Shown: positions 6,241-32,940 of the stretch, one piece after another
How the letters are laid out: each line of letters begins with the position of its first letter
How positions within the stretch are numbered: the stretch's first letter is position 1
Source: Lachnospiraceae bacterium
GTDB taxonomy: Bacteria > Bacillota > Clostridia > Lachnospirales > Lachnospiraceae
Reading direction: 5' to 3'
DNA: 32,940 bases
NCBI GenBank assembly: GCA_021205755.1
Contig: JAJPWX010000105.1
Location: forward strand, 1 to 32,940
Translations under genes and position numbers: made by a program
The notes under the pieces: generated by a model
What the model saw: only the letters and a program-made list of their open reading frames with translations
What the model was told of the DNA's origin: nothing
The model's database searches: none

Positions 6241-6286
6241 GTAACAGTTCAGAACAGCATCGGTCTGGGGGCTGCTGTTCTGAATC
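6241..6286. repeat. Dispersed intergenic palindrome TTCAGAACAGC/GCTGTTCTGAA, copy 2
   Basis: An 11-bp perfect inverted repeat (6248-6258 and 6274-6284) has a 15-nt loop. It starts with GTAACAG, as does the copy at 3181. It ends 3 bases before the sensor-kinase stop codon (TAA at 6288-6290) and may act as a 3' stabilising hairpin or a weak terminator for that gene, but there is no U run. Confidence 0.75.
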
Positions 6287-6287
6287 A

Positions 6288-17984: not shown

Positions 17985-19163
17985 CTATCCGTTTTTCCTG
18001 TGCGTTGCCAGGAATTTATTGATCCTCGCGGTCGGCGTGAGCAGATCGCTCATGGAGCCGTCATGATTCAGCGTATCAATGATCAGCGCAATGTATTTGC
18101 TCAGATCACAACCGGTATAGTAAGGTTTCGAGAGCAGTTCCGGCGACTGGTAGACCAGATTCGTCGTCACCAGCGCGTCAAAGAGCCCTTCCTCATACGC
18201 CTTGTCGAACTTCTCCAGACTCTTCGTAAACAGGCCAAATGTCGCACAGATCAGAACGCGCTTCGCCTTTCTCTTTTTCAACTGTCTGGCGGCGTCAATC
18301 ATACTGTTGCCGCTGACAATCATGTCGTCAATGAGAACCACATCCTGCCCCTCGATGTCTCTGCCGAGGAATTCATGCGCGACTATAGGGTGCTTCCCAT
18401 TCTCCAGGCGGGCATAATCACGCCGCTTGTAGAACATCCCCATATCAACGCCAAGCAGATTTGCCATGTAAATCGCACGCCCGGCAGCTCCTTCATCCGG
18501 GCTGATCACGGTCAGATGCTCCGGATCGATCTTCAGATCTGGTGCAGTGCGAAACAGCCCTTTGATAAACTGATAAACCGGAAGAACCGTCTCGAATCCG
18601 TGAAGCGGGATCGCGTTCTGCACCCGCGGGTCATGCGCGTCGAACGTAATAATATTTTCCACGCCCATCTTCGCCAGCTCCTGCAAGGCAATCCCGCAGT
18701 CCAGGGACTCGCGCCCTGCCCGTGTAAACTGGCGGCTCTCATAAAGAAACGGCATAATGACATTGACCCGGCGCGCCTTGCCGCCAATCGCGGCAATCAC
18801 ACGCTTCAAATCCTGATAATGGTCGTCCGGCGACATGCGGTTCGTATAACCATTCAGGGAATAGGTGAGACTGTAATTGCATACGTCCACCAGAATATAG
18901 ATATCCTTGCCGCGCACGGAATCATTCACCTGCCCTTTCGCCTCACCGGAGCCAAAGCGCGGCACATCCGTACTCACCAGATAAGAAGATTTATCATAAC
19001 CCAAAAGCAGCGGGCTGCCCTGATGCTCATGTACACGCTCCGATCGCCAGTTGACAATATGGGCATCAATCTTCCTGCCCAGCTCCTCGCAGCTTTTCAG
19101 CGCGATAATGCCCAGATCCCCGACCGGGATCGAATCCAGATTCCGCTCATAGCCAGTCTGCAT
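17985..19163 (-). CDS. prs: Ribose-phosphate pyrophosphokinase (PRPP synthetase), long divergent form
   Basis: The 392-residue protein has two tandem phosphoribosyltransferase-type domains. Recognisable sites are LYESRQFTRAGRE (the equivalent of the ATP-contacting RQDR region), FDAHDPRVQNAIPL, VISPDEGAAGRA and the PRPP-binding loop VVLIDDMIVSGNSM. It makes PRPP from ribose-5-phosphate and ATP for nucleotide, histidine and tryptophan synthesis. It is about 75 residues longer than classical Prs (about 315), with extra N- and C-terminal sequence and a PRPP loop that departs from DDMIDTAGT; I recall such forms from Lachnospiraceae. The start has GAGGAGG 5 bases upstream, and its own promoter is at 19267-19294. 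Confidence 0.88.
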   Translation of the reverse strand: MQTGYERNLDSIPVGDLGIIALKSCEELGRKIDAHIVNWRSERVHEHQGSPLLLGYDKSSYLVSTDVPRFGSGEAKGQVNDSVRGKDIYILVDVCNYSLTYSLNGYTNRMSPDDHYQDLKRVIAAIGGKARRVNVIMPFLYESRQFTRAGRESLDCGIALQELAKMGVENIITFDAHDPRVQNAIPLHGFETVLPVYQFIKGLFRTAPDLKIDPEHLTVISPDEGAAGRAIYMANLLGVDMGMFYKRRDYARLENGKHPIVAHEFLGRDIEGQDVVLIDDMIVSGNSMIDAARQLKKRKAKRVLICATFGLFTKSLEKFDKAYEEGLFDALVTTNLVYQSPELLSKPYYTGCDLSKYIALIIDTLNHDGSMSDLLTPTARINKFLATHRKNG

Positions 19164-19266
19164 TTTTTCCTCCTCAAACCTGCACAGCGCAAAGCAGGTA
19201 TTCTTCCGTAAAATCTGTTCGTAATCGCATGCGTTTTACTATTCTCTGACAGTAAAAACCGCTTCC

Positions 19267-19294
19267 ATCATACCATAAAACCTCACACGGTCAA
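19267..19294 (-). promoter_or_regulatory. Promoter of the PRPP synthetase gene
   Basis: On the minus strand TTGACC (19289-19294) and TATGAT (19267-19272) are 16 bases apart, about 105 bp before the start codon. Each hexamer matches 5 of 6 consensus bases. Confidence 0.75.
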
Positions 19295-19337
19295 GTCCCC
19301 ATAGCGATCTTTTTTCAAAACATATGCTTTGATCCTT

Positions 19338-20357
19338 TTATTCTCTCTGCCGCGCGGCAAGCTTTTTCTGAATCCGGATATCATCTCCAACCAGCCGCAG
19401 CATCCGGTAATCGCTGGAAATCCGGGACAGCACCCGCTCCGAATAACGTTCAGAAATCGCCGCCAGGGAGAGATTCGTCGAAATCATCGTACTCTTCCGG
19501 CGCAAAATCCGCTCGTTCAGAATCAGGAACAGACGGGAGGCGACAAAGGAATTCACCAGTTCTGTTCCGAGATCATCTATAATCAGGAGATCACATTCAA
19601 AAATATGCCGCTCCAGCTCACTCGCCTCGCTCTCATCCGTACGTCCGAAAGAAGAATCCGCCAACAGTTCAAACAGCCGAAACGCGGAAAAATAAATCAC
19701 AGAATGGGTGCTCGCAAGCAGCTCGTTGGCTACGCAATGGGAGAGAAATGTCTTGCCAAGCCCGGTATCTCCGGAAAGAAACAGGTTCGCGGTTTCCCCT
19801 TCGTCAAACTCCCGCACAAAACGCTGACACTCGCTCAGGGCACGCGCTGCCAGCGCTGCCGCAGTGAGACCGGTAGATGGATCTTTTATCGTCTCTGAGT
19901 AGTATTCCAGCGAAAAATCGGAAAAATTCTCTTCCCGGATGTTTTCACGCAAATTCGACCGCGTGTAGAGCAGGTCAATCGTCGCCTGCCGAAAGCAGTG
20001 GCACTTTTCCTGTCCAATATATCCGGTATCCTGGCAGTCCGGGCACTGATAGTGGGGCGTCAGATAATCCTCGGAGAAACCATTTTCCCGCAAAAGCTGT
20101 GTTTTTCTCTCACTGATTTTCTCAATCTGTGCGCGAAGCGAAGCAATGGACGGCGGAGAACTCTCGTTTCCCGGCTCAGCAAGCAATGCACGCGCACACG
20201 CAGTGCTTGCCGCTGCAATCTGTGCGTCCAGCGCAGACAACTCCGGTATCCGCTGATAGGTCTCCTTCTCCCGCTCATGCAGCTCCTGCCGCGCCTGGTT
20301 CTGGCGTCGCTGATAATCCCGCATAATCTCATCATACTGCGTATTCGTCAGTCCCAT
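19338..20357 (-). CDS. DnaC/DnaI-like replicative helicase loader ATPase
   Basis: The 339-residue protein has a helical N-terminal part and a cysteine motif YQCPDCQDTGYIGQEKCHCF (about residues 100-120) like the zinc-binding region of DnaI. An AAA+ domain follows with Walker A SGDTGLGKTFLSH, Walker B CDLLIIDDLGTE, a sensor 1 segment ISTNLS and the arginine-finger region ISERYSERVLSRI. It should load the replicative helicase onto DNA at the origin or at restarting forks. It is downstream of a DnaD-like gene (46 bp gap), and AGGGGG precedes its start. No clear terminator separates it from the PRPP synthetase gene. Confidence 0.9.
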   Translation of the reverse strand: MGLTNTQYDEIMRDYQRRQNQARQELHEREKETYQRIPELSALDAQIAAASTACARALLAEPGNESSPPSIASLRAQIEKISERKTQLLRENGFSEDYLTPHYQCPDCQDTGYIGQEKCHCFRQATIDLLYTRSNLRENIREENFSDFSLEYYSETIKDPSTGLTAAALAARALSECQRFVREFDEGETANLFLSGDTGLGKTFLSHCVANELLASTHSVIYFSAFRLFELLADSSFGRTDESEASELERHIFECDLLIIDDLGTELVNSFVASRLFLILNERILRRKSTMISTNLSLAAISERYSERVLSRISSDYRMLRLVGDDIRIQKKLAARQRE

Positions 20358-20402
20358 ACCTTTTCACCCCCTGATCTGTTCAGATTTTCTGAAAACCGCT
20401 GC

Positions 20403-21629
20403 TCACGGCTGACCGAACAGCTTCTTCTCCAGATTGTCATAATTGTACTCTCTCTGTGAGAAATTGTTAAACCGTCCTGCTCCGGCGGAATGTCCAGTCT
20501 TCTGGGCAGAATTCCGGGCGTTTTTCTTCACGCTCTGCTCCTGCTCCCATTTTGTATCCGCAGCCTCCACCTCTTTCATCGAATGGACGCCAGCTGTATG
20601 CCACTCAGTCAAAATCTTGTCGGCATACTGAAAATTCGGCTCATGAATCTGCCGGATCGTGCGGCGGCAGGCTTCTAGAATCAGTTCCAGATCAAAGCCG
20701 TACTCTCTCAGCCAGCGGTCAATGCTTTCCTGCTCCTGCGGTGCCGGATTCCGGCCTTTGAGACCAAATTCTTTCATAACGGCATAATAGTTCTTATTGT
20801 AAATGCTTGACTCCTTTTTAGCTTCCTGCACGGTTGTGACCCCGGCTTCCGCCCAACCCTGCGCCACCTTTCGCATATAAAAACGGCTAAACGAACCGCG
20901 CATAATACAATATTCCAGCAGATATTCCAGCAAATCCGTCGAAAATCCAAGTGTGTGGTAGTAATAAACAAAATCCTGCTGTTCCGTCGAAGAAAGTGGC
21001 CGCTTGAGATATTGCTCCGCCACAAAATAAAGCTCCCGGATATCCTCCTGCGCCGACGGTTCCAGCTGGGAAAGCATCGGGGAGGCTTCCTGGGAAGACT
21101 CATCCGGCTTCACCGTCTCCTGGGCATGGACGCCTGCCTCCTCCTGCCCCTTTCCGCTGTCATCCTGGTCTGTACTTAACTCCGGCCGCTGCCCGGCAGC
21201 ACCGACGGCAGCTTGCTGCGGCCATTTTGCGTGCTCTTCGCGCTTGTCACTGCGGCAGGGATCGCAGTAAGAAGTCATACCGTCGCTGTAGAGATCTGAT
21301 GTCTCCTGCAGCGCATCCGCAAGAATCACCGGCGTAGAATAATACCCCGGATCCAGGAACGTCACCGATTCCAGTGTCCCATCTGCGGAAAGCTTTAAAC
21401 GAAGCAGGTTCTGCCGCTCCCAATAGGTCAGCGCCCGCTGAACATCCTTTTCCGTGTGTTCAAACACATCCGCAATCGAGGAAAGGGACAACTCCCGCCC
21501 GCTGTTCGCACAACGGAGCAGATAAAGATAGACTTTGACAAATTCCCCATTCGCGTGGGGCATATACTGGTCAATAAATGAATTCTGGATCACCGTAGAT
21601 CCTTCTGGATTATCTGTATATATTTTCAT
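20403..21629 (-). CDS. DnaD-like primosome protein with an in-frame palindromic insert
   Basis: The 408-residue protein has a winged-helix-like N-terminal domain (YLYLLRCANSGRELSLSSIADVFEHTEKDVQRALTYW split across about 30-70). Two tandem DnaB_2/DnaD C-terminal-type domains follow (about 215-275 and 285-365), the second with the YADKILTEWHTAGV motif. This is the primosome component that helps load helicase together with the DnaC-like protein. The acidic, Gln/Ser-rich linker between the domains (about 127-167) is largely made of a palindromic repeat insert. The ATG at 21629 is preferred: it starts MKIYTDNPEGSTV and has GGGAAGG 9 bases upstream, whereas upstream codons to 21899 run through leader structures and the promoter. 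Confidence 0.88.
   Translation of the reverse strand: MKIYTDNPEGSTVIQNSFIDQYMPHANGEFVKVYLYLLRCANSGRELSLSSIADVFEHTEKDVQRALTYWERQNLLRLKLSADGTLESVTFLDPGYYSTPVILADALQETSDLYSDGMTSYCDPCRSDKREEHAKWPQQAAVGAAGQRPELSTDQDDSGKGQEEAGVHAQETVKPDESSQEASPMLSQLEPSAQEDIRELYFVAEQYLKRPLSSTEQQDFVYYYHTLGFSTDLLEYLLEYCIMRGSFSRFYMRKVAQGWAEAGVTTVQEAKKESSIYNKNYYAVMKEFGLKGRNPAPQEQESIDRWLREYGFDLELILEACRRTIRQIHEPNFQYADKILTEWHTAGVHSMKEVEAADTKWEQEQSVKKNARNSAQKTGHSAGAGRFNNFSQREYNYDNLEKKLFGQP
21131..21252 (-). repeat. Palindromic element copy B, inside the dnaD-like gene
   Basis: On the minus strand the copy reads CGCGAAGAGC, then AAAATGGCCGCAGCAAG, GGTGCTGCC, a GGCCGGAGTTAAGTACAGACC stretch interrupted relative to GH115, and a purine tail GGGGCAGGAGGAGG. 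Its peptide (REEHAKWPQQAAVGAAGQ, then LSTDQDDSG) aligns with the GH115 copy at 24024-24145 (REAISKWTPQPAAGAACQ, then LSTDRSDSG). The hairpin stems are less perfect here. It occupies the linker between the winged-helix and DnaB_2 domains. Edges are approximate. Confidence 0.75.
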
Positions 21630-21661
21630 CGCCAAACGCCTTCCCCGTCCATTTTCTCTTA

Positions 21662-21704
21662 CAGAATCCGGGAAAAAAGAAATGCTCACTGCCTCCGGAT
21701 TCTG
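21662..21704. repeat. 10-bp inverted repeat in the dnaD-like leader
   Basis: CAGAATCCGG (21662-21671) and CCGGATTCTG (21695-21704) are perfectly complementary with a 23-nt loop. The repeat lies in the 5' leader between the proposed promoter and the ATG at 21629. On the transcript an AT-rich loop would be exposed. Confidence 0.6.
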
Positions 21705-21778
21705 CCTGCTTCCGCTTCTCTGGTACTGCAGGCTGCGATACCAGCCCAAACCGATACCTTCCTTTTCATCTGTGAAAG

Positions 21779-21807
21779 AGTATAACATAATTCTCCCAAA
21801 ATGAGAA
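21779..21807 (-). promoter_or_regulatory. Promoter of the dnaD-like/dnaC-like operon
   Basis: On the minus strand an extended -10 TGTTATACT (hexamer at 21779-21784) lies 17 bases from TTCTCA (21802-21807). The leader would be about 140 nt. A near-consensus DnaA box begins 8 bp upstream of the -35. Confidence 0.65.
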
Positions 21808-21814
21808 CCGATAC

Positions 21815-22026
21815 TTTTCCACAGAAGCAAACGGTTGTCCCAGCCACTTATCCTGTGGATAATGTGGATAATGTGGATAACTGGTTGACAATAATTCACT
21901 TTTACAAATTCAAGCCCCCAAAAATGACGGTTTCTGTCGAATAATTATGTAAATCTCGTTATCCACAAACCTTTCCCCTTTCCTCCCAAGTCGCGGTGTG
22001 AATAAAAGTGTGGATAATGTGAATAA
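21815..22026. promoter_or_regulatory. DnaA-box cluster upstream of the dnaD-like/dnaC-like operon
   Basis: Seven exact matches to TTATNCACA lie within 173 bp. Three are tandem and back to back on the minus strand (21854-21862, 21863-21871, 21872-21880). One is on the plus strand (21959-21967). Three more are on the minus strand: 21997-22005 and, adjoining each other, 22009-22017 and 22018-22026. One single-mismatch box (TTTTCCACA) lies at 21815-21823. The stretch between is AT-rich. In the 502-bp gene-free gap (21630-22131) the rest is the operon promoter and leader on one side and the dehydrogenase 3' region on the other. No dnaA or dnaN gene is visible, so this may be a regulatory or titration cluster or an origin-like site. 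Confidence 0.85.
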
Positions 22027-22077
22027 CCCGGGAAAAACCAGCAAATAGCCAGCCTCCCGGGTGTGTAAAAAATGTTC

Positions 22078-22115
22078 GTAACAGTTCAGGACAACACCCG
22101 GCGAGGGGCCGGATG
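22078..22115 (-). terminator. Hairpin downstream of the dehydrogenase gene with half copy of the CTGAACTGTTAC repeat
   Basis: On the minus strand a hairpin (CATCCGGC with GCCGGGTG, one G-U pair, 22095-22115) is followed by CTGAACTGTTAC (22078-22089). The same CTGAACTGTTAY tail is present in the palindromes at 3181 and 6241. It starts 17 bp after the dehydrogenase stop codon. There is no long U run, so terminator activity is uncertain. Confidence 0.5.
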
Positions 22116-22131
22116 CTTGCTGCCACTACGT

Positions 22132-23178
22132 TTAATTTACTTTAATCACGCCTTTTACGATATCTGCCTTATTATCCACGCAGGAATCCAGTGCATTCTG
22201 AATGTCGTCCAGTTCAAAATAATTCGTCACAATATCTTTAATATGAATTTTACCGGAAGATACTGCGTCAATCGCCATCGGATAGATATTGCGATAGCGG
22301 AACACTGTCTTGAACGTCAGCTCTTTGTCAAGCGCCGTCCCGATCGGAAGCGTCATATCACCGGATGGACTGTAGCCGACAAAGACAATCGTCGCACCCT
22401 TTTTCGCCGCACGGATCTGCTGCTGAGCAGTAATCTGTGAGCCAGCCGTCTCAATGCCCAGGTCAAAGCCCGCGCCTCCGGTAATCTCTGTAATCCTTGC
22501 CACGGTATCCTCTTTCGCGCCATTGATCACCTCATCTGCGCCCAATTCTTTTGCTTTTTCCAGACGCTTGTCCATCACGTCCACAACGATGACTTTGGAA
22601 ACTCCCCTCGCTTTCAGAGAAAGAAGAGATACCAGGCCAATGCAGCCTGCTCCGGTCACAACCGCCGTCTGTCCCAGATGTGCATCCCCCTGATTTGCTG
22701 CGTGCATACCAACTGCCAGCGGCTCAATCAGCGCGCCTTCCATCGTGCTTACATTATCCGGGAGCTTAAAGCACAGCCCCGCTTCATGCGCCACATATTC
22801 CTGGAAGACGCCATCCACCGGCGGCGTCGCGAAGAAAACAACATCCTTGCACAGGTTATATTTTCCCTGCTTGCAGAATTCGCAATGGCCGCAGGTCTTG
22901 CCAGGCTCCAGTGCTACACGGTCGCCAACCTTCAGGTTCTTCACATTCCCACCAACCTCGACAACCGTACCTCCCGCCTCATGTCCGAGCACAAACGGCG
23001 GCTTCACGATAAAGTCTCCGATTCTCCCCGCCTCATAATAATGCAGGTCTGAACCGCAGATCCCCACGTACTCAATTTTTACCAGGACTTCATCCTCCTG
23101 GGGTACCGGGATTGGCCTCCTTTGGATCTCAACCTTGCGGATGTCGGTCATAACCGCTGTTTTCATTGTTCCATCCAT
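22132..23178 (-). CDS. Zinc-dependent medium-chain dehydrogenase, sorbitol/xylitol dehydrogenase-like
   Basis: The 348-residue protein has the MDR signature of polyol dehydrogenases. Catalytic zinc ligands are C41, H66, E67 (GHEAGG) and E152. A structural-zinc lobe carries C96, C99, C102 and C110. The Rossmann motif is VTGAGCIG (174-181), followed by VIVVDVMDKRLEKA, suggesting NAD as cofactor. It oxidises a polyol to a ketose or the reverse; the closest types are sorbitol, xylitol and L-iditol dehydrogenases, and the substrate cannot be decided here. It lies 172 bp downstream of the GH115 gene on the same strand, so it may process a released sugar. GGAG is 10 bases before the ATG. Confidence 0.9.
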   Translation of the reverse strand: MDGTMKTAVMTDIRKVEIQRRPIPVPQEDEVLVKIEYVGICGSDLHYYEAGRIGDFIVKPPFVLGHEAGGTVVEVGGNVKNLKVGDRVALEPGKTCGHCEFCKQGKYNLCKDVVFFATPPVDGVFQEYVAHEAGLCFKLPDNVSTMEGALIEPLAVGMHAANQGDAHLGQTAVVTGAGCIGLVSLLSLKARGVSKVIVVDVMDKRLEKAKELGADEVINGAKEDTVARITEITGGAGFDLGIETAGSQITAQQQIRAAKKGATIVFVGYSPSGDMTLPIGTALDKELTFKTVFRYRNIYPMAIDAVSSGKIHIKDIVTNYFELDDIQNALDSCVDNKADIVKGVIKVN

Positions 23179-23350
23179 AGCTTCATTTCTCCTTTCTTTG
23201 ATTCGTATCTATAATAATCCCAGGGTAAAAATCCCCTGATACCACGGATTACTCGTTCACTTAGGAACTGTTAAGAATTAACTTTGCAGATGACGCAGTA
23301 TAGAAAGATTTAGACAAGTCAGATGTAAAGATTCATTCTTTAACAGGTCC

Positions 23351-26300
23351 TTACTTCCGATAACTAACGTCCGGACCCAGGTAGGACGGCAGAAGTTTTG
23401 TTCCTTCTTTTACCAGCGTGAAGCGCTCCAGGGCAATCCCGGCGTCTCCTGCATAAACGGTAATCCGGTTCAGTCCTTCTTCAATGCTTATACGCGTATC
23501 AGCCTTGTGCTCCTGGTCAAGCACCGCCTGGCACCAGTCGGCACAGCCCGGATCTCCGCCCCGATAACCGTCGCCGGTGATGTTCACTGTTTCCGCCTTC
23601 TGACCATTGACGGAAACGCCCAGCCGGAGCATTCCGCCATAGACAAGCGGATTTGCCGGAGAAGTGTGCAGTGTCAGAGTGTATTCTCCGGCCTCTTCTG
23701 CCCAAACCTCCCAGGTAAGAGACGGAGCACTGCCCTCGTTCCAGTCATTTTCCCCGAAAATCGCCGTAGTCGGAAATACCTTCACCGCCGACCCATATTT
23801 TCCGTACTCTTTCAAAACTTGGAATGCTGCTCCGGCTCCTTCCTCCAGGCAGCAGCTGCTTTCTGTAAAATCACACGCGTCCCAGACGCAGACGCCGTCC
23901 TGAATCAGAAAAGCCCCTTCCGGAACAGCGCTCAGATCTTTTATTCCTGCCCGGATGAGCAGCGGCACACGCTCTCTTCCAGCGACTACCGCGCAGCGAA
24001 ATTCCACAAGATCTTTTTCTGCTGGTATCGCCCCCTCCCGCATATCTCCGCTATCGCTCCGGTCGGTGCTCAACGCCTGCCACTGGCAGGCAGCACCGGC
24101 GGCAGGTTGCGGCGTCCATTTCGAGATCGCTTCGCGATGGACGCCGGCTGCTGGAAGCTTCTCCCGCAGGAATCGGATCCGCACTTCCGTGAGCAGCTCC
24201 GTGCTTCCTTCTGACGGCGTAATCGCGAAGCAGTCATTCTGTCCCTCAATTTTCCAGTCAACCGCGCCCTGTCCGCCGTTTGCCACCTCAAGAACAACCT
24301 CGTCGACTCCCGCATTTTGGAAATCATCGATCACCAGCGGTACCGGAAAGTACTGATTCGTAAAAGTCTCCGTACGGTCTTCACGCGAAACAACCAGACG
24401 CGGATGGTTCGGAAGTGTCATCATATGGCGCACCGGATAGCGGTAATCCTCATCATTCCAGTTCACAAAGCCGATGTGCTCCTCGCGCTCCATGCCGCTC
24501 CATTTCCCGCCTTTAAAGGCTGCCATCTGTGCGGCAAGTGCTTTATCCCTCGCAATGCACGCCTCCAGGCTCTCCCCATACTGATTTGCAATCGCCTTGC
24601 CCTGCGCGCTGTACAGATGGTTCAGACCCGCGTACAAATGCATCTTCAGAAGATTCGCAATTCCGGCTGCCGGGAAATAGATGGTGCTGTAGTAGCCGTC
24701 CCCGCAAGGCAACTTCTCCAGTGCTTTTCTCAGTTCTTCGTTTTTCTGCTCCAGAGCTTCCGCGCGGGCAAGCATTTTTTTCGCTTCACCGTAATGCGCC
24801 GGGTGATAAATCGTATCGTTCAGCGCCTCCGCCCTCCGCAGGCTGTGAAGCTGCGTGGACTCTTTCAGCACCCAGGTAATATCGGCCAGCTGCTCCTCAT
24901 TCACATAAAAGCCAAACAGAGAGCGAACCCAGGACGCGGGGTAATCAAGTGTATTTTCGTAGCCTTTTTGTCCGTAACTCTCAAAATCATACGCCAGCGA
25001 CAGGAAATAGCCCAGCGGATACTCGTTAAATTTGACGTCGCCTACATTGAGAATCCATACATCGCGGATGCCATATTCCCAGGCCTGCGTCATCTGCTCC
25101 CAGATCTTAGTAAGCGGCGTGGAATTCACCCACTCATAGGAAATCGGGCTGCCGTGGTAATCCACATGGTAATACATCCCGTAGCCGCCCGGATGCGGAC
25201 GCAGCTTTCCGTCCGCTGTACCGGACGTCCTGTCGCCCTCCTGGATGCGGCAGAAATCCTGCGGCAGCGCACGCATATTGTTAAAATTATCCTCGCAAAA
25301 CATCAGCGTCACATCGTCCAGCTCTTCAAAATCCCGCAGTCCTGCGGACTCGCTGTTTCCAAAGAAGTAATCCTCCACTTCCTTATAAATAGCGAGAAGC
25401 TGCGGCACCTGCTTCAGATCCGGATTGATATGCTTCGCAATCAGCTTTCTCTGCTCCGTGATGATCTCCTTCAGCTGACGGACGTTCTCCTGCACCGTAA
25501 CGCCTTCGCCCAGCAATTTCGAGTCATTTTCCCCGCGCATGCCGATCGTCGGAAAAATATTTTGCCCTTTCACACGGCTTAAACCGTCTTCCCAGAACTT
25601 CAGCAGGCCTTCCTTATTTTTCTCATAACTCCAGTCATTTCCATACGGAGAGTTCTCACCTTTGAAAATGGAAAATTCCTCGCCGGAGCGCATACAAGGC
25701 TCGTGATGGGACATCCCGATAAAAATACCGTACTCCGTCGCCAGTTCCATCGAGGCAAGCCCAGGCCCGTCCAGCAAAAAGGAGGAAGACCACATCGCCG
25801 GCCAAAGATAATTGCCCTTCATGCGCAGCAGGTATTCAAATATTTTGTCGTACATTTCGGCGGTAAAGCCCTTATAGTGCGAGAAAGTCCAGCTTCCAAA
25901 GCACGGCCACTCATCGTTGATAAAAAACCCGCGGTATTTGACCGAAGGTTCCTTCGAGATACCGTTCTTTACCGGAATCACAACCGTCTCCTTTTCCTCT
26001 TCCGTCAGTTCTGCCGCGTGATCAGTAAGGAGCACACTTCCAAGCTGAGGAGGCGCGACATCTCCCCAGAAGCCCCAGGCAGTCACACCGAGAAGCTCCG
26101 ACAGATGAAACATCCCGTAGATCGTTCCAATCCGGTCACTGCCCACAATCACAAGCCCCTGCTCAATCTCCGGCAGCGGGTGCTCCACCAGATAAAAGCC
26201 GTAGCTCTCCCATCTGCCTTTCAGCGCGCCCAACTCCGGAATTCTCTCCGCCAGCGTATCCGCCAGAGCGTCATGCCCCAGCTCCGCGACCACAATCGCC

Positions 26301-26533
26301 TGCGGCAGCTTTCTGTATGGTATCGCCCCCTCCCTCTGGTCGGCGGCAGCTTGCGGCGTCGATTTTGAGTCCGCTTCGCGTACGACGCCGCTACCCGGTA
26401 AAATAATCTGGCTTTTGGCCCCTGTCACCGCCTCTACATCAACGGCTACTTTCACACCAATCCTGCGGATTCCCTGCCCTGCCGCAGGATCCAGGATTAC
26501 ATTTATATAACCATCCAATCTCAATTCTGCCAT
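23351..26533 (-). CDS. Glycoside hydrolase family 115 (xylan alpha-1,2-glucuronidase-like) with two palindromic inserts
   Basis: The 1060-residue protein has the GH115 pattern. An N-terminal domain (VGSDRIGTIYGMFHLSELLG) is followed by the catalytic barrel from about residue 199 (YRGFFINDEWPCFGSW, YLWPAMWSSSFLLDGPG, MSHHEPCMRS, IGMRGENDSKL), a helical region and C-terminal beta domains. The family removes (4-O-methyl-)glucuronic acid from xylan or arabinogalactan side chains. No signal peptide is seen, so it acts in the cytoplasm on imported oligosaccharides. The ATG at 26533 starts MAELRLDGYINV; the longer frame to 26590 runs through promoter-like sequence (TATACAAT). Two palindromic elements are read in frame, at about residues 49-72 and 797-837. 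Confidence 0.92.
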   Translation of the reverse strand: MAELRLDGYINVILDPAAGQGIRRIGVKVAVDVEAVTGAKSQIILPGSGVVREADSKSTPQAAADQREGAIPYRKLPQAIVVAELGHDALADTLAERIPELGALKGRWESYGFYLVEHPLPEIEQGLVIVGSDRIGTIYGMFHLSELLGVTAWGFWGDVAPPQLGSVLLTDHAAELTEEEKETVVIPVKNGISKEPSVKYRGFFINDEWPCFGSWTFSHYKGFTAEMYDKIFEYLLRMKGNYLWPAMWSSSFLLDGPGLASMELATEYGIFIGMSHHEPCMRSGEEFSIFKGENSPYGNDWSYEKNKEGLLKFWEDGLSRVKGQNIFPTIGMRGENDSKLLGEGVTVQENVRQLKEIITEQRKLIAKHINPDLKQVPQLLAIYKEVEDYFFGNSESAGLRDFEELDDVTLMFCEDNFNNMRALPQDFCRIQEGDRTSGTADGKLRPHPGGYGMYYHVDYHGSPISYEWVNSTPLTKIWEQMTQAWEYGIRDVWILNVGDVKFNEYPLGYFLSLAYDFESYGQKGYENTLDYPASWVRSLFGFYVNEEQLADITWVLKESTQLHSLRRAEALNDTIYHPAHYGEAKKMLARAEALEQKNEELRKALEKLPCGDGYYSTIYFPAAGIANLLKMHLYAGLNHLYSAQGKAIANQYGESLEACIARDKALAAQMAAFKGGKWSGMEREEHIGFVNWNDEDYRYPVRHMMTLPNHPRLVVSREDRTETFTNQYFPVPLVIDDFQNAGVDEVVLEVANGGQGAVDWKIEGQNDCFAITPSEGSTELLTEVRIRFLREKLPAAGVHREAISKWTPQPAAGAACQWQALSTDRSDSGDMREGAIPAEKDLVEFRCAVVAGRERVPLLIRAGIKDLSAVPEGAFLIQDGVCVWDACDFTESSCCLEEGAGAAFQVLKEYGKYGSAVKVFPTTAIFGENDWNEGSAPSLTWEVWAEEAGEYTLTLHTSPANPLVYGGMLRLGVSVNGQKAETVNITGDGYRGGDPGCADWCQAVLDQEHKADTRISIEEGLNRITVYAGDAGIALERFTLVKEGTKLLPSYLGPDVSYRK
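24024..24145 (-). repeat. Palindromic element copy C, 122 nt, inside GH115
   Basis: On the minus strand it starts with a hairpin: GGCGTCCAT pairs with ATGGACGCC (24137-24145 with 24111-24119), with ATCGC-GAA-GCGAT at the apex. CGCAACCTGCCGCCGG follows, then a second perfect hairpin GCCTGCC-AGT-GGCAGGC (24075-24091), and the tail GGGAGGGGGCGATACC. It encodes GVHREAISKWTPQ, AAGAACQWQALSTD and MREGAIP without stops. It is the fullest copy in the window and lies between beta domains of the enzyme. Confidence 0.85.
26319..26389 (-). repeat. Palindromic element copy D, 71 nt, inside GH115 near the N terminus
   Basis: On the minus strand GGCGTCG pairs with CGACGCC (26383-26389 with 26354-26360), with CGC-GAA-GCG at the apex. 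CGCAAGCTGCCGCC follows, then the tail GAGGGAGGGGGCGATACC. It encodes GVVREADSKSTPQAAADQ and REGAIP in frame. It equals copy C without the central 51 nt, so the middle hairpin behaves as an optional module. The insert sits between LPGSG and YRKLPQAIVVAELG of the host protein. Confidence 0.85.
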
Positions 26534-26649
26534 AATTTTATCAGTCCTTTCTGATTCGACTATGAGCCTATTGTATAATGTTTCTCCCATTCCTGCTCTG
26601 AAAAAATTGCTTAGATTTTCTCATATTTTGCTATGCAGACCAATGCAGA

Positions 26650-29600
26650 TCAGCGGAAAGAAAACCAGTGAAAATCAAACTGGCAGCCCGGCAGGAAAAC
26701 AAAGCTTATCTTCTTTTTCCCACGGATCGGCCCGACCGCAAAGGTCTGTTCACTCTGACCGCCCGCATATTCCAGGACAAAGCGCTCTCCAATTGCTTCT
26801 TCCGCCGCTGCCTCATCCGATTCTGCTGCTTCCACGCGCAAAACGATGCTGTTTTTCTCAAGCGGAGTCATTCCTGCAATCGTGATCTGACCAGCACCCG
26901 TTTCGCCAAAATCCATCTCGCCAAATTCCAGCGTAACATTGTTGCCAATTCCGCGCACCCATTCGCCATCCCGCGTAAAGCAGTCGCCATAGACGCTTAC
27001 ACAATCCAAAGCGTTCTGCCGCTCATACGCACGGATCTGGCGGGCAAAGGAAAAGCCTTTGATGTGAACCTTTTCATGCAAAACAAAGCACAGGCTCGTC
27101 ACGCCCCGCAGATGCCGGTTCAGATGATACGTCTCCGCCTGATAGGTATTCCAGATCGACGGCTTCTGATAAATCACATCCCCGATCAGTTCCGCGCCCG
27201 GCTCACCAGGCATCCCCTCGTAAATCTGGATTCGGTGCGGTTCCCCTTCCAGGGCGAAAACCGGCAGCGTGATCTCATTTGAGCCTTCCGGCCCAAAATC
27301 GATGCCATGATACCCCACCTGCGTCTCCCCATCACGCCCGGTTGCCACGCCGTGCTCATTTCCATTTCCCGGCTCGCCCCGGCTGTAATCATAGAGACCG
27401 CCCGAGATAAAACCATACGGATCCAGGAAAGCGGTTCCCAGGCTTTCGGCGGTAAATTCCAGCTGAGAAATCATGCGCACACTTTCTTTTTCACTTCCGG
27501 TATCACCCTTTTTTTCCGGTTGGCGGCCGTTTGCGGCATCCATTTCCAGACCGCTTCCCGACGGACGCCGGCTTTGTGATGTACAGCGCAGGCGGAATTT
27601 CCCATCACTCTTCGCCCGAACCAGGACACACGCGTCCGCGGTTTCCAGTTCTGGCCTTTCCTTAAGCAGCTCATCCGAAAGCTCCAGCGGCTCCACTGTG
27701 GCAAGCGGCAGCGGAATCCCGGAATCATCCACCACGCTCCAGGCAAGCGACCGGTCCGTCGCAGCCGCAGGGCAGATAGTAGCGGTCACAATTGTCTCCG
27801 GATGTTCCTTCGCAAGATGAATCCCATCCAAACTTTTCAGGCGAATCGCACGCACAGGGATATCCTCCAGGCCTTTCTCCTCTTTACCGACATCGTTCGT
27901 CGGCGACTGACAGGCAGCACCGGAGGCTGCTTGCGGCGTCCATTTCGAGCACACTTCGCGTGAAATGCCGCGGGCGGGATCCGCCAGAAATGCCAGCGGA
28001 CTGCTGCCCGGTTCGGGCGTTCCCTCTGCCACCGGCACCGTCAGCACCGCCGCGGGGAGTCCCGGCGACGTGACGGTCACCACCAGTTCCCCTGATTCTG
28101 TCCCGGTCTTCGCCACCGCGAGAAGTTTTCCGCTAAAAAGCCTGCGGCTGCCGCTTTTATAGCTTTCCCGGTCCGTGCTGTCTCCATTGTCCGTGCCGAC
28201 CAGCGCACCAGCGCCCGTCACAGAAACCTGCACCCGGTTCACCGCATTTTCCACCGGATTCCCATCCGCGTCTTCCATTGTAATTTCCACAAAAAGAAGA
28301 TCGTTTCCATTCGCCGTAAGTTCCTTTGACGGTGCAGCCGCTTCCTGCAGCAAGATTTTCGCGGCATCGCCAAAAGACCGGTGCGCCTCTTCCGCAATCA
28401 CGATCCCTTTTTCATCATATGCTTTTGCGCGAATCTCTCCCGCCTGATACAGCACGCGCCAGGTCGCGGAAATATGGCGCTCATCCAGAATCTTCTTTCC
28501 CTGGCTCTCCCCATTCAAAAACAGCTCCACCGCAGGCGCGTTGGAGTAAACGCGCACATCAATCTCCTGCCCTTCGTTGTAATCCCAGTAAGGAAACAGG
28601 TGCACCATCGGATTTTTCCGGTAATCCGTCCACGCCGCCTGATAGCAGTAATAGGAATCCTTCGGGAAACCCGCCGTATCCACCTGTCCAAAGTAGGAAT
28701 TTTTCGTGTGATAAGGTGTCGGTTCTCCGATATAATCAAATCCAGACCACAGAAACTGCCCGCAGGAAAACGGGTGATCCCACTCCGCCGCAATACAGTC
28801 TTCATGCGACTTCGCGCCCCAGCTCGTCGTTGAGTTTCCGAGCGAGGAGCACTGTTCGTCCTCATCCGCCAGTACCGATTTCGTGTAAGGGAAGTGATAA
28901 ATTCCGCGGCTCTGCACCACTGAACCCGTCTCACTGCCGTAAATCACCCAATCCGGATGTTTTTCATGATGCTCGTCATAATAATTTGCTCCATAATTAT
29001 AGCCCGCCAGCTTTACAATGTCCGCGCACTTCTGCGCGTTCTCCCACGGCATATAATTCGAGCCAATCGTCGGATGCGCGTTTCCAAGCGGGTCATGCTT
29101 CGCCACCTCCGCAAGCAGACGGCGCGTCCACTCCTGGCCTTTTTCACTGGCATGCGTATCGTGAATTTCATTTCCAATGCTCCACATAATCACACTCGGC
29201 CGGTTGCGGTCCCGCCGAATCCAGCTCGCCACATCCGCCGGATACCATTCCGGGAAAAACCGCGCGTAATCGTAAGGCGTCTTCGGCGATTCCCACATAT
29301 CAAACGCCTCCGACACCACCAGAATCCCCAGCCGGTCCGTCAGCTCCATCAGCCCCGCGGCCGGCATATTATGAGAAAGACGGATCGCGTTAGTTCCCAT
29401 CTCCTTCAGAATCCGCAGCTTCCGCTCCATCGCCTGCGAATGGAACGCGCTGCCCAGGCAGCCAAGGTCATGATGGTCACAAACCCCGTTCAGCTTCACC
29501 TTTCTGCCATTTAAAAGGAAGCCCTTCTCCGGAAGAAACTCCGTCGTGCGGAAGCCCACCATCTGCTCCTCGCTCTGAATCGTCTCGCCACACCTGGTTA

Positions 29601-30423
29601 ACTCCACACGCAGACGGTAAAGATACGGGTTCTCAATATCCCAGCGCACCGGATTCACCAGCTGGCCGTAAAGCTGATACAAAAAATGCGTCTCACATCT
29701 TCTGCCATAGACGCTGCCGCACTGGTTCTCACCGCGCGATATGCCGCAGTCTGATTCTTTCTCTTGCTGAGGCTCTCCCTGTCCGGACAGAACAGCAGTG
29801 CCCTCCGCATCCAAAAGAGTAAAATGTACGTTGAAATCACCACACGAAAAATCACGTCCGGACACTTCCGCCTGAAGCCATACCTCCCAGATATCCCGAT
29901 TCCCGTCATCCAGGTTCATTGCCGAATTGAGCGGTTCTCCGTTTTTCCCATCCGCCGATAAAGCAATCATTTTCTGATCCGCCGCAGAAGGGACAGCATG
30001 AAAATAAATCCCATCCGCGACCAGATACTGCTCGTGCGTCGTGCACAGCCACACATTGCGGTAAATGCCCGCGCCGGAATACCAGCGGCTGTTCGGATTG
30101 CGGAAATCCACCGTCACCAGCAGCTCATTTTCCCCATCCTTCAGCTTGTCCGTAATCTCAAACTCAAACGCAGAATAGCCATACTTCCACTCCCAGACCT
30201 GCTCTCCGTTCAGGTAATAACGGCTGTCCATATATACGCCGTCAAAGCGCAGAAATACCCGCTCATCCGGCTGCCTCTTCCATGAAAAAATCTTCCGGTA
30301 ACGGCCGAGGACATCCTCGTAAAAAGTCTCCGTGCTATAAATCGCCCAGTCATGGGGCAAACCTACAGGAGAAAATGCTTCTTCGTTTTTGGAAAATTCC
30401 CAGTTGTCATTGAATAATCGCAT
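26650..30423 (-). CDS. Glycoside hydrolase family 2 enzyme (beta-galactosidase-like) with two palindromic inserts
   Basis: The 1257-residue protein begins MRLFNDNWEFSKNEEAF and has the GH2 order: a sugar-binding jelly-roll (LPHDWAI, FDGVYMDSRYYLNG, GAGIYRNVWL), an Ig-like domain and a TIM barrel. The acid/base Glu is in MWSIGNEIHD (E419) and the nucleophile in YGSETGS (E498). A DUF4982-like domain (YSNAPAVELFLNGESQG) and further beta domains follow. The reaction is retaining hydrolysis of a terminal beta-linked sugar; galactose is most likely, and glucuronic acid or another sugar is possible. No signal peptide is seen. Two palindromic elements lie in the C-terminal third. It precedes GH115 by 116 bp and follows GH31, so the three probably act together. 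Confidence 0.92.
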   Translation of the reverse strand: MRLFNDNWEFSKNEEAFSPVGLPHDWAIYSTETFYEDVLGRYRKIFSWKRQPDERVFLRFDGVYMDSRYYLNGEQVWEWKYGYSAFEFEITDKLKDGENELLVTVDFRNPNSRWYSGAGIYRNVWLCTTHEQYLVADGIYFHAVPSAADQKMIALSADGKNGEPLNSAMNLDDGNRDIWEVWLQAEVSGRDFSCGDFNVHFTLLDAEGTAVLSGQGEPQQEKESDCGISRGENQCGSVYGRRCETHFLYQLYGQLVNPVRWDIENPYLYRLRVELTRCGETIQSEEQMVGFRTTEFLPEKGFLLNGRKVKLNGVCDHHDLGCLGSAFHSQAMERKLRILKEMGTNAIRLSHNMPAAGLMELTDRLGILVVSEAFDMWESPKTPYDYARFFPEWYPADVASWIRRDRNRPSVIMWSIGNEIHDTHASEKGQEWTRRLLAEVAKHDPLGNAHPTIGSNYMPWENAQKCADIVKLAGYNYGANYYDEHHEKHPDWVIYGSETGSVVQSRGIYHFPYTKSVLADEDEQCSSLGNSTTSWGAKSHEDCIAAEWDHPFSCGQFLWSGFDYIGEPTPYHTKNSYFGQVDTAGFPKDSYYCYQAAWTDYRKNPMVHLFPYWDYNEGQEIDVRVYSNAPAVELFLNGESQGKKILDERHISATWRVLYQAGEIRAKAYDEKGIVIAEEAHRSFGDAAKILLQEAAAPSKELTANGNDLLFVEITMEDADGNPVENAVNRVQVSVTGAGALVGTDNGDSTDRESYKSGSRRLFSGKLLAVAKTGTESGELVVTVTSPGLPAAVLTVPVAEGTPEPGSSPLAFLADPARGISREVCSKWTPQAASGAACQSPTNDVGKEEKGLEDIPVRAIRLKSLDGIHLAKEHPETIVTATICPAAATDRSLAWSVVDDSGIPLPLATVEPLELSDELLKERPELETADACVLVRAKSDGKFRLRCTSQSRRPSGSGLEMDAANGRQPEKKGDTGSEKESVRMISQLEFTAESLGTAFLDPYGFISGGLYDYSRGEPGNGNEHGVATGRDGETQVGYHGIDFGPEGSNEITLPVFALEGEPHRIQIYEGMPGEPGAELIGDVIYQKPSIWNTYQAETYHLNRHLRGVTSLCFVLHEKVHIKGFSFARQIRAYERQNALDCVSVYGDCFTRDGEWVRGIGNNVTLEFGEMDFGETGAGQITIAGMTPLEKNSIVLRVEAAESDEAAAEEAIGERFVLEYAGGQSEQTFAVGPIRGKKKISFVFLPGCQFDFHWFSFR
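27499..27569 (-). repeat. Palindromic element copy E, 71 nt, inside GH2, read in a different frame
   Basis: On the minus strand it aligns without gaps to the 71-nt copy D: GGCGTCC pairs with GGATGCC (one wobble), GGAAGCGG lies in the apex, ATGCCGCAAACGGCCGCC follows and the tail ends GGTGATACC. Read in the frame used by copies B-D it would give GVRREAVWKWMPQTAANR...VIPE. The host gene reads it one frame away, as RRPSGSGLEMDAANGRQPEK, with no stop codon. Confidence 0.8.
27858..27969 (-). repeat. Palindromic element copy F, inside GH2
   Basis: On the minus strand it starts GGCATTTCACGCGAAGTGTG and continues CTCGAAATGGACGCCGCAAG. The apex stem ACGC-GAA-GTGT keeps pairing through a G-U pair. CCGGTGCTGCCTG follows, then a diverged distal half without the second hairpin or a clear GATACC tail. 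The peptide GISREVCSKWTPQAASGAAC, then QSPTND, matches copy C. The right edge is approximate. Confidence 0.75.
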
Positions 30424-30465
30424 TCCGTTGATTCCTCCAGTTTATCTGTTCTATTTCTTCCTTGC

Positions 30466-30506
30466 GGGTAACAGTTACCCTTGTGATAAAATTGTTAGCG
30501 TTACCT
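30466..30506. promoter_or_regulatory. Candidate operators in the GH31-GH2 gap
   Basis: The 82-bp gap before the GH2 start holds a perfect 15-bp palindrome, GGGTAACAGTTACCC (30466-30480), and TTGTTAGCGTTACCT (30492-30506). The second matches the CcpA cre consensus WTGNAANCGNWNNCW at all but one fixed position. Either could bind a LacI/CcpA-type regulator of the hydrolase genes. No good promoter hexamers are seen. Confidence 0.35.
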
Positions 30507-32833
30507 CAGATTGCTATCTGTTTCACCACAATTTCCTTATACCGCGGGTACCCCTCCTGTTCCATCCGCACAGTCAGACTTCCCTTTTCATCCTTTATGA
30601 ATTGATAAAGATTATATTCCCCGCGCTGATATGCGTAATCTTCCCCATTATCCTGAAAATGCGTGTATTCGGCTGCGCCAGGAGTGGTCAGAAGAAACAG
30701 CTTATCATATGGCTTTTCCCCCACATACGCCATTGGCTCATAAGTCGGAATGATGCTTCCGGCTTTGATAAACAGCGGGCAGACATCCAGCGGGGCGTCG
30801 CAGCAGACATACTGCCGTCCTTCATAAGCTTTGCCGCTCCAGTAATCATACCAGACGCCTTCCGGCAGGTAGACCATCTTTACCACCGCTCCCGGCTCGA
30901 CCACCGGAGCGACCAGCAGATTCTCTCCCACCAGAAATTCGGTGTTCAGATTGTATGTATTCGGGTCGTCCTCATAATGGAGAACCAGCGGCCGCATAAT
31001 AGGCAGCCCGCTTTGCTCTCCCTGATAAAACAGGTCATATATATATGGAAGAAACTCATATCTCAGCGTTACGTATTTTCGGTAAATTGCGGTGATCTTC
31101 TCGCCAAACTGCCACGGCTCCTGTCTTCTGGTGCTTTTCGCAGAGTGATTGCGGAACAGCGGGGAAAAACAGGCCGCCTCCACCCAGCGCGCCATCAGCT
31201 CCGGCGTCGCATCCTCTCCAAAGCCGCCGATATCCGTCCCGGCAAAAGCAAACCCGCTCATGCCCAGATTGCAAAGCTGCGGAATCATCATCTGCAGATG
31301 GCTCCACAGGCTCTGGTTGTCCCCTGTCCACACCGTCGAATATTTCTGCGTCCCGGCATAGCAGGCGCGCGTGATCACAAACGGCCGACGATCGCTGTAT
31401 TTCCGCAATCCCTCGAAGGCCGCTTTGCTCATACAGTGCCCATACAGATTGTGCATTTCCGCATGATCCGTCGTTCGTTCCTCATTCGAAAAGACCACAT
31501 CCGCGGGAAGCTGCCCGCGAAAGCTCGCCGGCTCATTCATATCATTCCAGATTCCGGCTGCGCCCAGATCCAGCAGGAACTTTTCATGCTCACCCCACCA
31601 GCCGCGCACTTCCCTGCGGCCAAAGTCCGGATACACGGCATCCCCTGGCCACACCTCATTGGCATAAATCTCTCCATCCGTATCTAACGCAAAGAAACCC
31701 TGCTCCTTGCCCTCTTCGTACATAAAATAGCCGTCTTCTTTTTTCACCCCGGGGTCCAGAATCATTACCACCTTAAAGCCATCTTCCCCAAGTGTTTTCA
31801 CAACAGCGCCGGGAGCCCCCATCGCCTCTTCATCCCAGGTAAATACCTTAAAATGATCCATATAATCAATATCAAAATGAATCACATCACAGGGAATCTC
31901 TTCCTCGCGATACTTTCTGGCCACTTCCAGAAAATCCTCCGCACAGTCATATCCCCAGCGCGACTGCTGATGACCGAGCGTCCAGAGCTGCGGCAGCGGC
32001 GTCCGTCCGGTCAGCCAGGTATAGTTCCGGATGACAGAAGCAATACTTCCCCCGCCAATGATATAGAAATCCAGATTCCCGTCGTCCGCACCGTAAAAGA
32101 AATAATCCGGATTCTCCTTGCCCAGATCAAAATAGCTGTGATAAGAATTGTCAAAAAACAGCCCGCAGGAAAGCTCCTTCCGCTTACAAATCAAAAACGG
32201 AACACTCTTATACAGCGCGCGGAACTGCTCCGTATGCGCCTGCGGATTATCTGTATTCCAATTTTCATACTCATAATCCCGTTTATTCAAAAACCCGGTT
32301 TTATCGCCCAGACCGTAAAAGCAATCCTCCTCTTCCAGTCTGCATACAAGCTGCACCGGATAGTTTTCCTTTCTCATATGGGAAACGTCATGCCCTTCCG
32401 CCTCAATCAGCTGCAGCTGCCGCTCACTCAAAACATTGGAGATGGTGCGTTCCCCGTCCCACGTCCGCAGAAGCTCGCGCCCCTTTTCATCCGTCACGCA
32501 GATGTACAGATCCTCACCAAGCTCCAGCCGAAGCGCTCCGGCCGCGGTGATTCCCTCCCTGGTCTTTTGCACACCAGTCGCAATGCCGCGCGCTTCAGTC
32601 ATTTGCGCTTCCGTGCAAATGACTGCCATCCCGGCTTCCTGCTTCGCCGAAAATGTGACCGGAATTGCCTTCTCCCCCTCAACCGCCTGTGATTCCTGCT
32701 CCTGCCTTTTGAGCGGCACAAACACATGGATCAATTCCGGCGTAAGAATTGTTACCTCAATCTCCTGATTTTCAAAATGAGCCAAAACCCGGTTCCCATC
32801 CACTTCAAAAGTGCGCAGTCTCCCTGTCTTCAT
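30506..32833 (-). CDS. Glycoside hydrolase family 31 enzyme (alpha-xylosidase/alpha-glucosidase-like)
   Basis: The 775-residue protein has an N-terminal beta domain and the GH31 barrel with HFDIDYMDHFKVFTWDEE. The nucleophile Asp is in GIWNDMNEPA (D431), and the acid/base Asp in WTGDNQSLWSHL (D505). FAFAGTDIGGF, FRNHS and a C-terminal beta domain follow. It hydrolyses alpha-linked glucose or xylose from non-reducing ends; alpha-xylosidase fits the hemicellulose context but is inferred. There is no signal peptide, so it is cytoplasmic. The ATG at 32833 (MKTGRLRTFEVDG) is chosen because AAAGGA lies 8 bases upstream; in-frame ATGs at 32842 and 32854 are less well placed. A diverged palindromic element lies at about residues 70-96. 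Confidence 0.92.
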   Translation of the reverse strand: MKTGRLRTFEVDGNRVLAHFENQEIEVTILTPELIHVFVPLKRQEQESQAVEGEKAIPVTFSAKQEAGMAVICTEAQMTEARGIATGVQKTREGITAAGALRLELGEDLYICVTDEKGRELLRTWDGERTISNVLSERQLQLIEAEGHDVSHMRKENYPVQLVCRLEEEDCFYGLGDKTGFLNKRDYEYENWNTDNPQAHTEQFRALYKSVPFLICKRKELSCGLFFDNSYHSYFDLGKENPDYFFYGADDGNLDFYIIGGGSIASVIRNYTWLTGRTPLPQLWTLGHQQSRWGYDCAEDFLEVARKYREEEIPCDVIHFDIDYMDHFKVFTWDEEAMGAPGAVVKTLGEDGFKVVMILDPGVKKEDGYFMYEEGKEQGFFALDTDGEIYANEVWPGDAVYPDFGRREVRGWWGEHEKFLLDLGAAGIWNDMNEPASFRGQLPADVVFSNEERTTDHAEMHNLYGHCMSKAAFEGLRKYSDRRPFVITRACYAGTQKYSTVWTGDNQSLWSHLQMMIPQLCNLGMSGFAFAGTDIGGFGEDATPELMARWVEAACFSPLFRNHSAKSTRRQEPWQFGEKITAIYRKYVTLRYEFLPYIYDLFYQGEQSGLPIMRPLVLHYEDDPNTYNLNTEFLVGENLLVAPVVEPGAVVKMVYLPEGVWYDYWSGKAYEGRQYVCCDAPLDVCPLFIKAGSIIPTYEPMAYVGEKPYDKLFLLTTPGAAEYTHFQDNGEDYAYQRGEYNLYQFIKDEKGSLTVRMEQEGYPRYKEIVVKQIAI
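32546..32626 (-). repeat. Palindromic element copy G, diverged, inside GH31
   Basis: On the minus strand a perfect 11-bp stem (CAGTCATTTGC at 32615-32625 with GCAAATGACTG at 32596-32606) has the loop ACGGAAGC, sharing GGAAGC with the other copies. AAGCGCGCGGCATTGCG follows, then a tail AGGGAGGGAATCACC that resembles GGGAGGGGGCGATACC. The peptide TEAQMTEARGIAT, then TREGI, has the EA and REGI ends of the family. The stem sequence is unlike the other copies, so membership is less certain. Confidence 0.5.
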
Positions 32834-32899
32834 ACGGTTCATCCTTTCGTACATTTTATCTTCTTATTTCAAATACAGAATATACGTAACTAACTCAGC

Positions 32900-32922
32900 A
32901 ACCACCAGTTCAACTGGTGGTT
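32900..32922. repeat. Perfect 11-bp palindromic hairpin at the right edge
   Basis: AACCACCAGTT (32900-32910), a central C, and AACTGGTGGTT (32912-32922) form a perfect palindrome followed by TGATTTTGGCCC. Hairpins of this form occur at ends of IS200/IS605-type elements and also as terminators. It sits upstream of the GH31 gene, and the window ends 18 bases later, so the choice cannot be made here. Confidence 0.5.
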
Positions 32923-32940
32923 TGATTTTGGCCCTCCAAA

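Follow-up and report, generated by a model that had tools for sequence, protein, structure and literature searches.

The catalogued RNA motif GA-cis (Rfam RF02987) is very probably, in the genus of the Lachnospiraceae bacterium studied here, a non-autonomous mobile palindromic element of about 72–84 bp, which has entered many sites, within genes as well as elsewhere and without a fixed orientation, and persists in genes chiefly where the reading frame stays open. We analyzed contig JAJPWX010000105.1 of assembly GCA_021205755.1 (32,940 nucleotides, hereafter the window; contig C15 of a genome of 4,024,550 bases), for which an initial annotation had proposed a family of short palindromic elements with six located copies (B to G) inside four genes and a seventh (A) between genes. 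Table 1 lists the features.

Two covariance models were used to score the copies. R1 was built from 22 copies of the own genome (D, which is therefore a training copy, and 21 others) and was scored without filters over positions 19000–32940 of the window; RF02987 has a curated cut-off of 34.7 bits, and its matches in the window were listed to E ≤ 5. The top five R1 matches are D (26315–26397, 67.0 bits, with D itself in the training set), C (24085–24152, 33.6 bits), E (27495–27578, 14.8 bits), F (27904–27977, 14.0 bits) and B (21191–21259, 13.7 bits, E 0.025); the next match, elsewhere, has an E-value of 0.6. Support independent of R1 comes from cmscan, in which D (26315–26396, minus strand) reaches 47.3 bits against RF02987, and because D exceeds the cut-off the element core is the catalogued RNA motif, which overturns the suggestion that the family was undescribed in Lachnospiraceae. 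C scores 31.9 bits, under the cut-off, with an alignment split by 58 nt within the second hairpin, and B, E, F and G have no RF02987 match in the window at E ≤ 5. Membership of B, E and F therefore follows from R1, and it fails for G, for which R1 gives no match at E ≤ 10. Repeat grouping placed one family at five places in three genes (21180–21261, 24074–24155, 26341–26391, 27498–27579 and 27898–27979). Five of the six located copies (B to F) are thus confirmed as members of a genome-wide family, and G is a real in-frame insertion as compared to G015 that is unmatched by the family models. The genome scan with covariance models that had been proposed as a check found further copies: 31 matches with RF02987 at E ≤ 1 (21 over the cut-off) and 41 with R1 at E ≤ 0.01 in the 4.02 Mb genome.

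All four host genes in the window stay open through the inserts, as had been claimed. The peptide REAxSKWTPQxAAxGAACQ, said to be shared by unrelated hosts, is exact in C only (REAISKWTPQPAAGAACQ); F reads REVCSKWTPQAASGAACQ, and parts of it occur in B and D. The same residues in distant homologues, which would point to common ancestry, were not found in GH115: the C or D peptide occurs in none of 47 aligned homologues (an alignment of 48 rows including the query, from 120 listed of 5594 matches, with the partial G015 protein, P0010, left out). Four of the 47 have other insertions in the C loop, and G015, outside the alignment, does carry D.

Insertion into unrelated genes follows from alleles without the element in relatives, with flanks 72–99% identical, and here the initial annotation was right. 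The window was compared with G031, G010, G008, G027, G028 and G015 (our handles for the relatives). G031 lacks B, C and D. D is absent from G010, G008, G027 and G028 as well, and G015 has it; G015 also has E and F, which G010 lacks, but not G. The net lengths in Table 1 are from BLAST end points, except for E, where anchors give the value listed (our own arithmetic) and BLAST end points give 77 nt. The linker holding B is variable, with other sequence there in G010 and G015, a 7-nt direct repeat flanks C, and the site of E in G015 has a longer copy with a nested palindrome. Elsewhere in the own genome, empty alleles were found for copies in genes of GH78 (G015, G010), EF-G/YacP-like (G010, G031), M3 peptidase (G010) and response regulator (G010) proteins, and G010 keeps a remnant at the GH2 site and at one ABC transporter site. 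Two own-genome copies are present in all relatives compared; among the shared ones, L023 is common to G010 and G031, L030 to G010, G031 and G015, and others to one relative. Seven sites of copies from G031, G015 and G001 have net inserts of 72, 78, 75, 75, 72, 84 and 78 nt (hosts: valine-tRNA ligase, Era, GH2, IMP cyclohydrolase-like, DUF4143 and macro-domain proteins and one unnamed host); at the last of them, the G010 allele differs by 42 and keeps part of the element.

Some hosts are probably enzymes that the cell cannot do without. The valine-tRNA ligase of G031 and G015 (NCBIfam, 483.7 bits, a 427-residue fragment) has a GA-cis insert inside the Pfam stretch and directly before the segment DTWFSSALWPFSTLGWP (L356/L371 on G031:C172 and G015:C239), and the ligase of G000, G010 and G001 has no insert; the insert-bearing gene is the sole valine-tRNA ligase match in G031, and G015 has a second match, 74% identical. 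The GTPase Era in G031 carries one copy. In the M3 peptidase, the insert adds net 25 residues in G000 and G015 and is absent from G010 and from the eight genomes without GA-cis that could be aligned, out of ten searched. Placement in linkers or between domains, as originally described, applies to several hosts and not to all: inserts lie within the Pfam stretch in valine-tRNA ligase and within the best Pfam stretch in GH78, M3, GH2 and Fic proteins.

Among the 21 own-genome copies over the RF02987 cut-off, 16 are found in open reading frames (ORFs) with Pfam domains (15 over the curated cut-off, plus D in GH115), including GH78, ABC ATPases, EF-G/YacP-like, M3 peptidase, AAA-ATPase/PDDEXK, GH2, response regulator, GH127, recombinase, Fic, SASA esterase and HTH proteins; L034 and L035 share one ORF, two scanned ORFs have no family, and three copies were left unscanned. 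We also collected 112 distinct copies from the fetched loci (118 matches to a regular expression for the core, minus duplicates and those with Ns), of which 82 (73%) lie in ORFs of at least 300 aa, as compared to 72% of random windows of the same loci. These 82 use all six frames, 32 in sense and 50 in antisense orientation. For contrast, P2, a palindrome nested in copy C, has 9 of its 38 places in such ORFs. The 30 copies outside them include 12 loci with open stretches of at least 60 aa on both sides, in different frames at eight. A Pfam scan of these eight and of L045 found no split-family pair at seven of the eight: the two flanks of L225 match different families, and the remaining six have no family. 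L045 has an ABC transporter on one side only.

GA-cis is concentrated in one genus. In 60 genomes including the own one, for which strict filters make all counts lower bounds, 16 of the 36 from the genus carry it and none of the 24 from other families does, with at least 54 copies in G021, 53 in G033, 48 in G031 and 41 in G015. G021, the genome with the most matches, also holds a locus (L227, G021:C52:2640–2878) with a tandem array of three GA-cis units at a spacing of 78 nt. An order-wide survey, with up to 10 candidates scored per genome, found GA-cis in at least 15 of 392 genomes and at least 10 of 173 genera, mostly as a single copy; most of the 17 outgroup loci inspected are at gene boundaries, and many start with AGGAGG or a near variant (Shine-Dalgarno-like). 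Named carriers among the matches listed are Lachnospiraceae, Clostridiales and Eubacterium sp. records. Carriage by phages and presence in other phyla were considered and rejected: of four viral contigs found by pattern, L342 matches R1 weakly at full length with 28.6 bits and unconvincing letters, L344 more weakly with 16.8 bits, and the nested palindrome has no match in the four; among the matches listed, 30 loci of other groups reach at most 25.1 bits and are mostly fragments (the pattern also matched GC-rich genomes), and scoring seven further loci of other groups gave a fragment in one (L141). Three loci of one metagenome-assembled genome (MAG; JAUNDD, S22M_St_65_sub), L078, L081 and L084, carry an identical GA-cis copy within a shared stretch of ~230–272 bp at 97–98% identity. 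The stretch is a larger repeat around the copy and was considered as a possible larger autonomous element.

The element consists of a variable self-complementary stem, a GCGNAGC loop and a conserved second hairpin (CTGCCGCCGA...GAGGGGGCG), ending at about TTTCCA. Column entropy puts its start ~13 nt ahead of the GCGNAGC loop and its end at the A of TTTCCA, and the sequence farther out is near random. The loop and second hairpin are nearly fixed and the outer arms hypervariable (74 different 8-mers in 111 copies), and the two arms of a copy match each other: pairing within the own copy averages -19.5 kcal/mol as compared to -10.0 with the arms of other copies (standard deviation of the shuffled mean 0.28), the own arm is the best or tied-best partner in 70 of 111 copies, and in one fixed register 69.3% of pairs in the 111 copies are standard versus 53.4% when shuffled (maximum 57.0%), or 93.6% versus 66.9% (maximum 71.6%) in 58 copies selected for that register, all figures that relatedness among copies inflates. 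Both-sided changes are seen in 6 of 13 predicted pairs, in keeping with the two-hairpin structure of RF02987. Tandem units of 78, 84 and 87 nt occur and the arm is repeated after the 3' end in 21 of the 112 copies, which shows that units have been gained and lost.

The longer copies are composite. The ~120-nt copies had been taken as single elements; in copy C, a second palindrome, P2 (GGTGCT...AGCACC stem), sits in the loop of the second GA-cis hairpin, and B and F probably carry a nested palindrome as well. P2 copies lie behind 18 own-genome loci, and no Rfam family over cut-off covers them; L012 has Rfam matches to drum and DUF3800-XI (822–935 and 2834–2881) within 3 kb of a P2 copy. A third palindrome, P3, is in GA-cis at 7 of 16 places. 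By eye, L241 has P3 inside P2 adjoining GA-cis sequence, and in L241, L244, L014 and L059 P3 lies inside P2 at seemingly the same internal position. The GH2 alleles of G031 and G000 differ by P3 (39 nt, our own count). A further repeat around CAGTTCAGAACAGCA is found at 3189–3234, 6245–6290 and 22078–22109 of the window and beside P2 at L005, L011 and L013; it is possibly one more palindrome family, and possibly also the intergenic copy A.

Table 1. Host genes, GA-cis copies and the nested palindrome located in the window (net lengths relative to the allele of the relative named).
Feature	Position	Strand	Evidence or remark
DnaD-like protein gene (TIGR01446, PF07261), host of B	20403..21629	-	family match
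Copy B, decayed GA-cis, probably with nested palindrome, in DnaD-like gene	21124..21266	-	net +144 nt vs G031
GH115 family gene, host of C and D	23351..26590	-	family match
Copy C, GA-cis with second palindrome in 3' hairpin loop, in GH115	24020..24153	-	net +129 nt vs G031
Nested palindrome P2 within copy C	24043..24097		further copies elsewhere in genome
Copy D, GA-cis over Rfam cut-off, near GH115 N terminus	26315..26397	-	net +78 nt vs G031; also in G015
GH2 family gene (PF02836), host of E and F	26650..30423	-	family match
Copy E, decayed GA-cis in GH2	27495..27578	-	net +78 nt vs G010; absent in G010 and G008
Copy F in GH2, GA-cis at 27904-27977 and probably a remnant of the nested palindrome	27868..27979	-	net +66 nt vs G010; also in G015
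GH31 family gene (PF01055), host of G	30506..32854	-	family match
Copy G, in-frame hairpin insertion in GH31	32540..32604	-	net +72 nt vs G015; not recognised as family member

As for mechanism, the hairpin, as single-stranded DNA or RNA, may be recognised by an enzyme acting in trans, and the element would then land with little sequence preference and no fixed duplication. Selection would remove most insertions that shift the frame or fall in a folded core, and the 22–28 added residues (43–48 in the composites C and B) would be translated and tolerated. The arms could be held complementary either by a need for the hairpin in mobility or by template switching, in which one arm is copied onto the other. 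Target-site duplication was considered and rejected: repeats of at least 10 nt between the 5' arm and the 3' flank occur in 21 of the 112 copies versus ~1 when shuffled, and most run into a tandem unit. A fixed duplication was not found in 78 single copies (the best of many offsets has z 3.8, at 31% versus 26% identity), and at resolved sites direct repeats range from 0 to ~20 nt by eye. A resident Y1 transposase or reverse transcriptase as driver was also rejected, since neither is associated with the family across genomes; Y1_Tnp is present in 24 of 47 genus genomes.

Several observations weigh against a mobile element kept where the frame stays open. Identical copies of recent origin, flanked by clean duplications, did not turn up. 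A mobilising protein was not found either: Y1_Tnp is absent at E ≤ 1e-5 in G031, G015 and G013, carriers of 48, 41 and 26 copies, and RVT_1 is absent in the carriers G010, G013 and G021. The 5' arm is already in the empty allele at 2 of 15 sites. The seven net lengths above are all multiples of three partly by construction, because the sites were chosen for an open host frame, so no frame-breaking insertion could show up among them. Element length modulo 3 does not differ between copies inside and outside long ORFs (p 0.44), and 'in an ORF' among the 112 copies means an open frame of at least 300 aa, not a verified gene. At L146 (1572–1650), Na_H_Exchanger profile positions 4–81 and 85–312 lie on either side of the copy in different frames, which may reflect either an insertion that broke a Na+/H+ exchanger gene or a sequencing error in the MAG. 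The genomes compared are mostly draft MAGs.

Among other explanations, GA-cis could be a true cis-regulatory RNA that is kept for its function, with the in-gene copies incidental. The conserved two-hairpin structure and the Rfam status speak for such a role, as do the mostly single copies of other genera and their common position at gene boundaries, often with an AGGAGG start; we nevertheless regard it as unlikely, because copies in the genus are mostly inside ORFs of unrelated hosts, 50 of 82 are antisense, and occupancy varies between close relatives. Splicing of in-gene copies from the message, or their bypass by the ribosome, would suit strong RNA hairpins in coding sequence (even in valine-tRNA ligase), and at L146 removal could rescue the exchanger halves. 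It would not require an open frame, yet the frame is open through the insert in conserved hosts, and antisense copies cannot present the same RNA, so we consider it very improbable. We think equally little of the inserts as adaptive linker extensions that help their host proteins: several are common to more than one species, but the unrelated hosts, the use of both orientations and all six frames, and the differences in occupancy between near relatives suggest insertions that are tolerated.

The variable arm might also act as a guide, with a target chosen for pairing with the 3' arm and then becoming the new 5' arm. The arms are hypervariable yet complementary, the empty alleles of GH78 and of copy G already contain the 5' arm, to which the 3' arm that was inserted is complementary, and the 15 pairs tested (g15F was dropped, its allele without the element not being clean) score as a set above shuffled partners (85 of 20000 permutations). 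At L076 (4765–4880, Lachnospiraceae UBA5902), a 22-nt ribosome-binding-site stretch stands at both ends. Without GH78 and G, however, the signal is gone (9184 of 20000) and 13 of the 15 sites show none; G falls outside the recognised family, the same arms recur in several copies at unrelated sites, and the GH78 allele can be a deletion scar between repeated arms, as the GH2 remnant in G010 suggests. We regard guiding by the arm as quite improbable; the 5' arm in the two empty alleles may have been left as a scar or may come from guided insertion in occasional cases. L321 (G423) resembles L076 in that its 5' arm recurs just past the element, where the following gene has its ribosome-binding site. 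A bolder form of the mobile-element reading is that GA-cis represents a new mechanistic class of hairpin transposon, with replaceable co-evolving arms, no fixed duplication, apparently no resident Y1 transposase or reverse transcriptase and arm–target pairing that sometimes helps site choice, the catalogued RNA motif being really a coding mobile element; we hold this out as a speculative reading that is unlikely to be right.

Most is known of protein-coding palindromic elements from Rickettsia and Wolbachia, organisms that are difficult to experiment on. Gut Lachnospiraceae offer a family whose occupied and empty alleles are up to 99% identical in the flanks, which makes the origin of the insertions testable, and also how proteins absorb at least 25 foreign residues, even within a peptidase or valine-tRNA ligase domain. 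Our results suggest reinterpreting an Rfam RNA family as a mobile element, and they are a warning that a motif search confined to intergenic sequence can take such elements for regulators. Literature searches found no paper in which GA-cis is treated as mobile or as coding; the one paper found that names it is Rfam 15 (PMC11701678).

The miniature inverted-repeat transposable elements (MITEs) ERIC, Correia/NEMIS and RUP are, in excerpts of PMC2229807, described as in some cases fused in frame to ORFs. GA-cis resembles MITEs in being short, non-autonomous, hairpin-forming and interspersed; unlike them, it has no fixed target duplication that we could find and ends that do not resemble a terminal inverted repeat, its 5' end being AGC followed by variable sequence and its 3' end about GGGGGCGTTTCCA (by eye). 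Repetitive extragenic palindromic (REP) elements are not known to make a target duplication, in which GA-cis resembles them. They are short palindromes, as is GA-cis, and the title of PMC3733652 names their tags GTAG/CGTC. In contrast to REP elements and their transposases (RAYT), GA-cis is mostly inside ORFs, and three carriers with 26–48 copies have no Y1 transposase. Rfam files RF02987 as an RNA gene (sRNA), and GA-cis was reportedly found in intergenic regions (Weinberg et al., 2017). D and 20 more own-genome copies exceed the family cut-off and so are like RF02987; unlike the family as filed, most sampled copies are in ORFs, in both orientations and with variable occupancy. Rickettsia palindromic elements (RPE) are Rickettsia-specific and are said to go back to Ogata et al. 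(2000, 2002). Excerpts of PMC2229807 and PMC10969869 give them as 105–146 bp long and in frame in protein genes, with target duplication marked '?'; the former cites protein-coding palindromic repeats of Wolbachia (Ogata et al., 2005), and passages of PMC6649704 state that RPE lose repeat identity over time and name template switching for the concerted evolution of palindrome arms. GA-cis falls below the RPE length range, with net inserts of 72–84 nt at the seven sites, and differs further in its two hairpins, its Rfam family, its presence in Lachnospiraceae and the nested palindrome in longer copies. Judged by their descriptions, GA-cis works like RPE, as the initial annotation had suggested: both are small hairpin-forming repeats that lie in frame inside unrelated conserved protein genes, with L146 as the one frame-breaking case.

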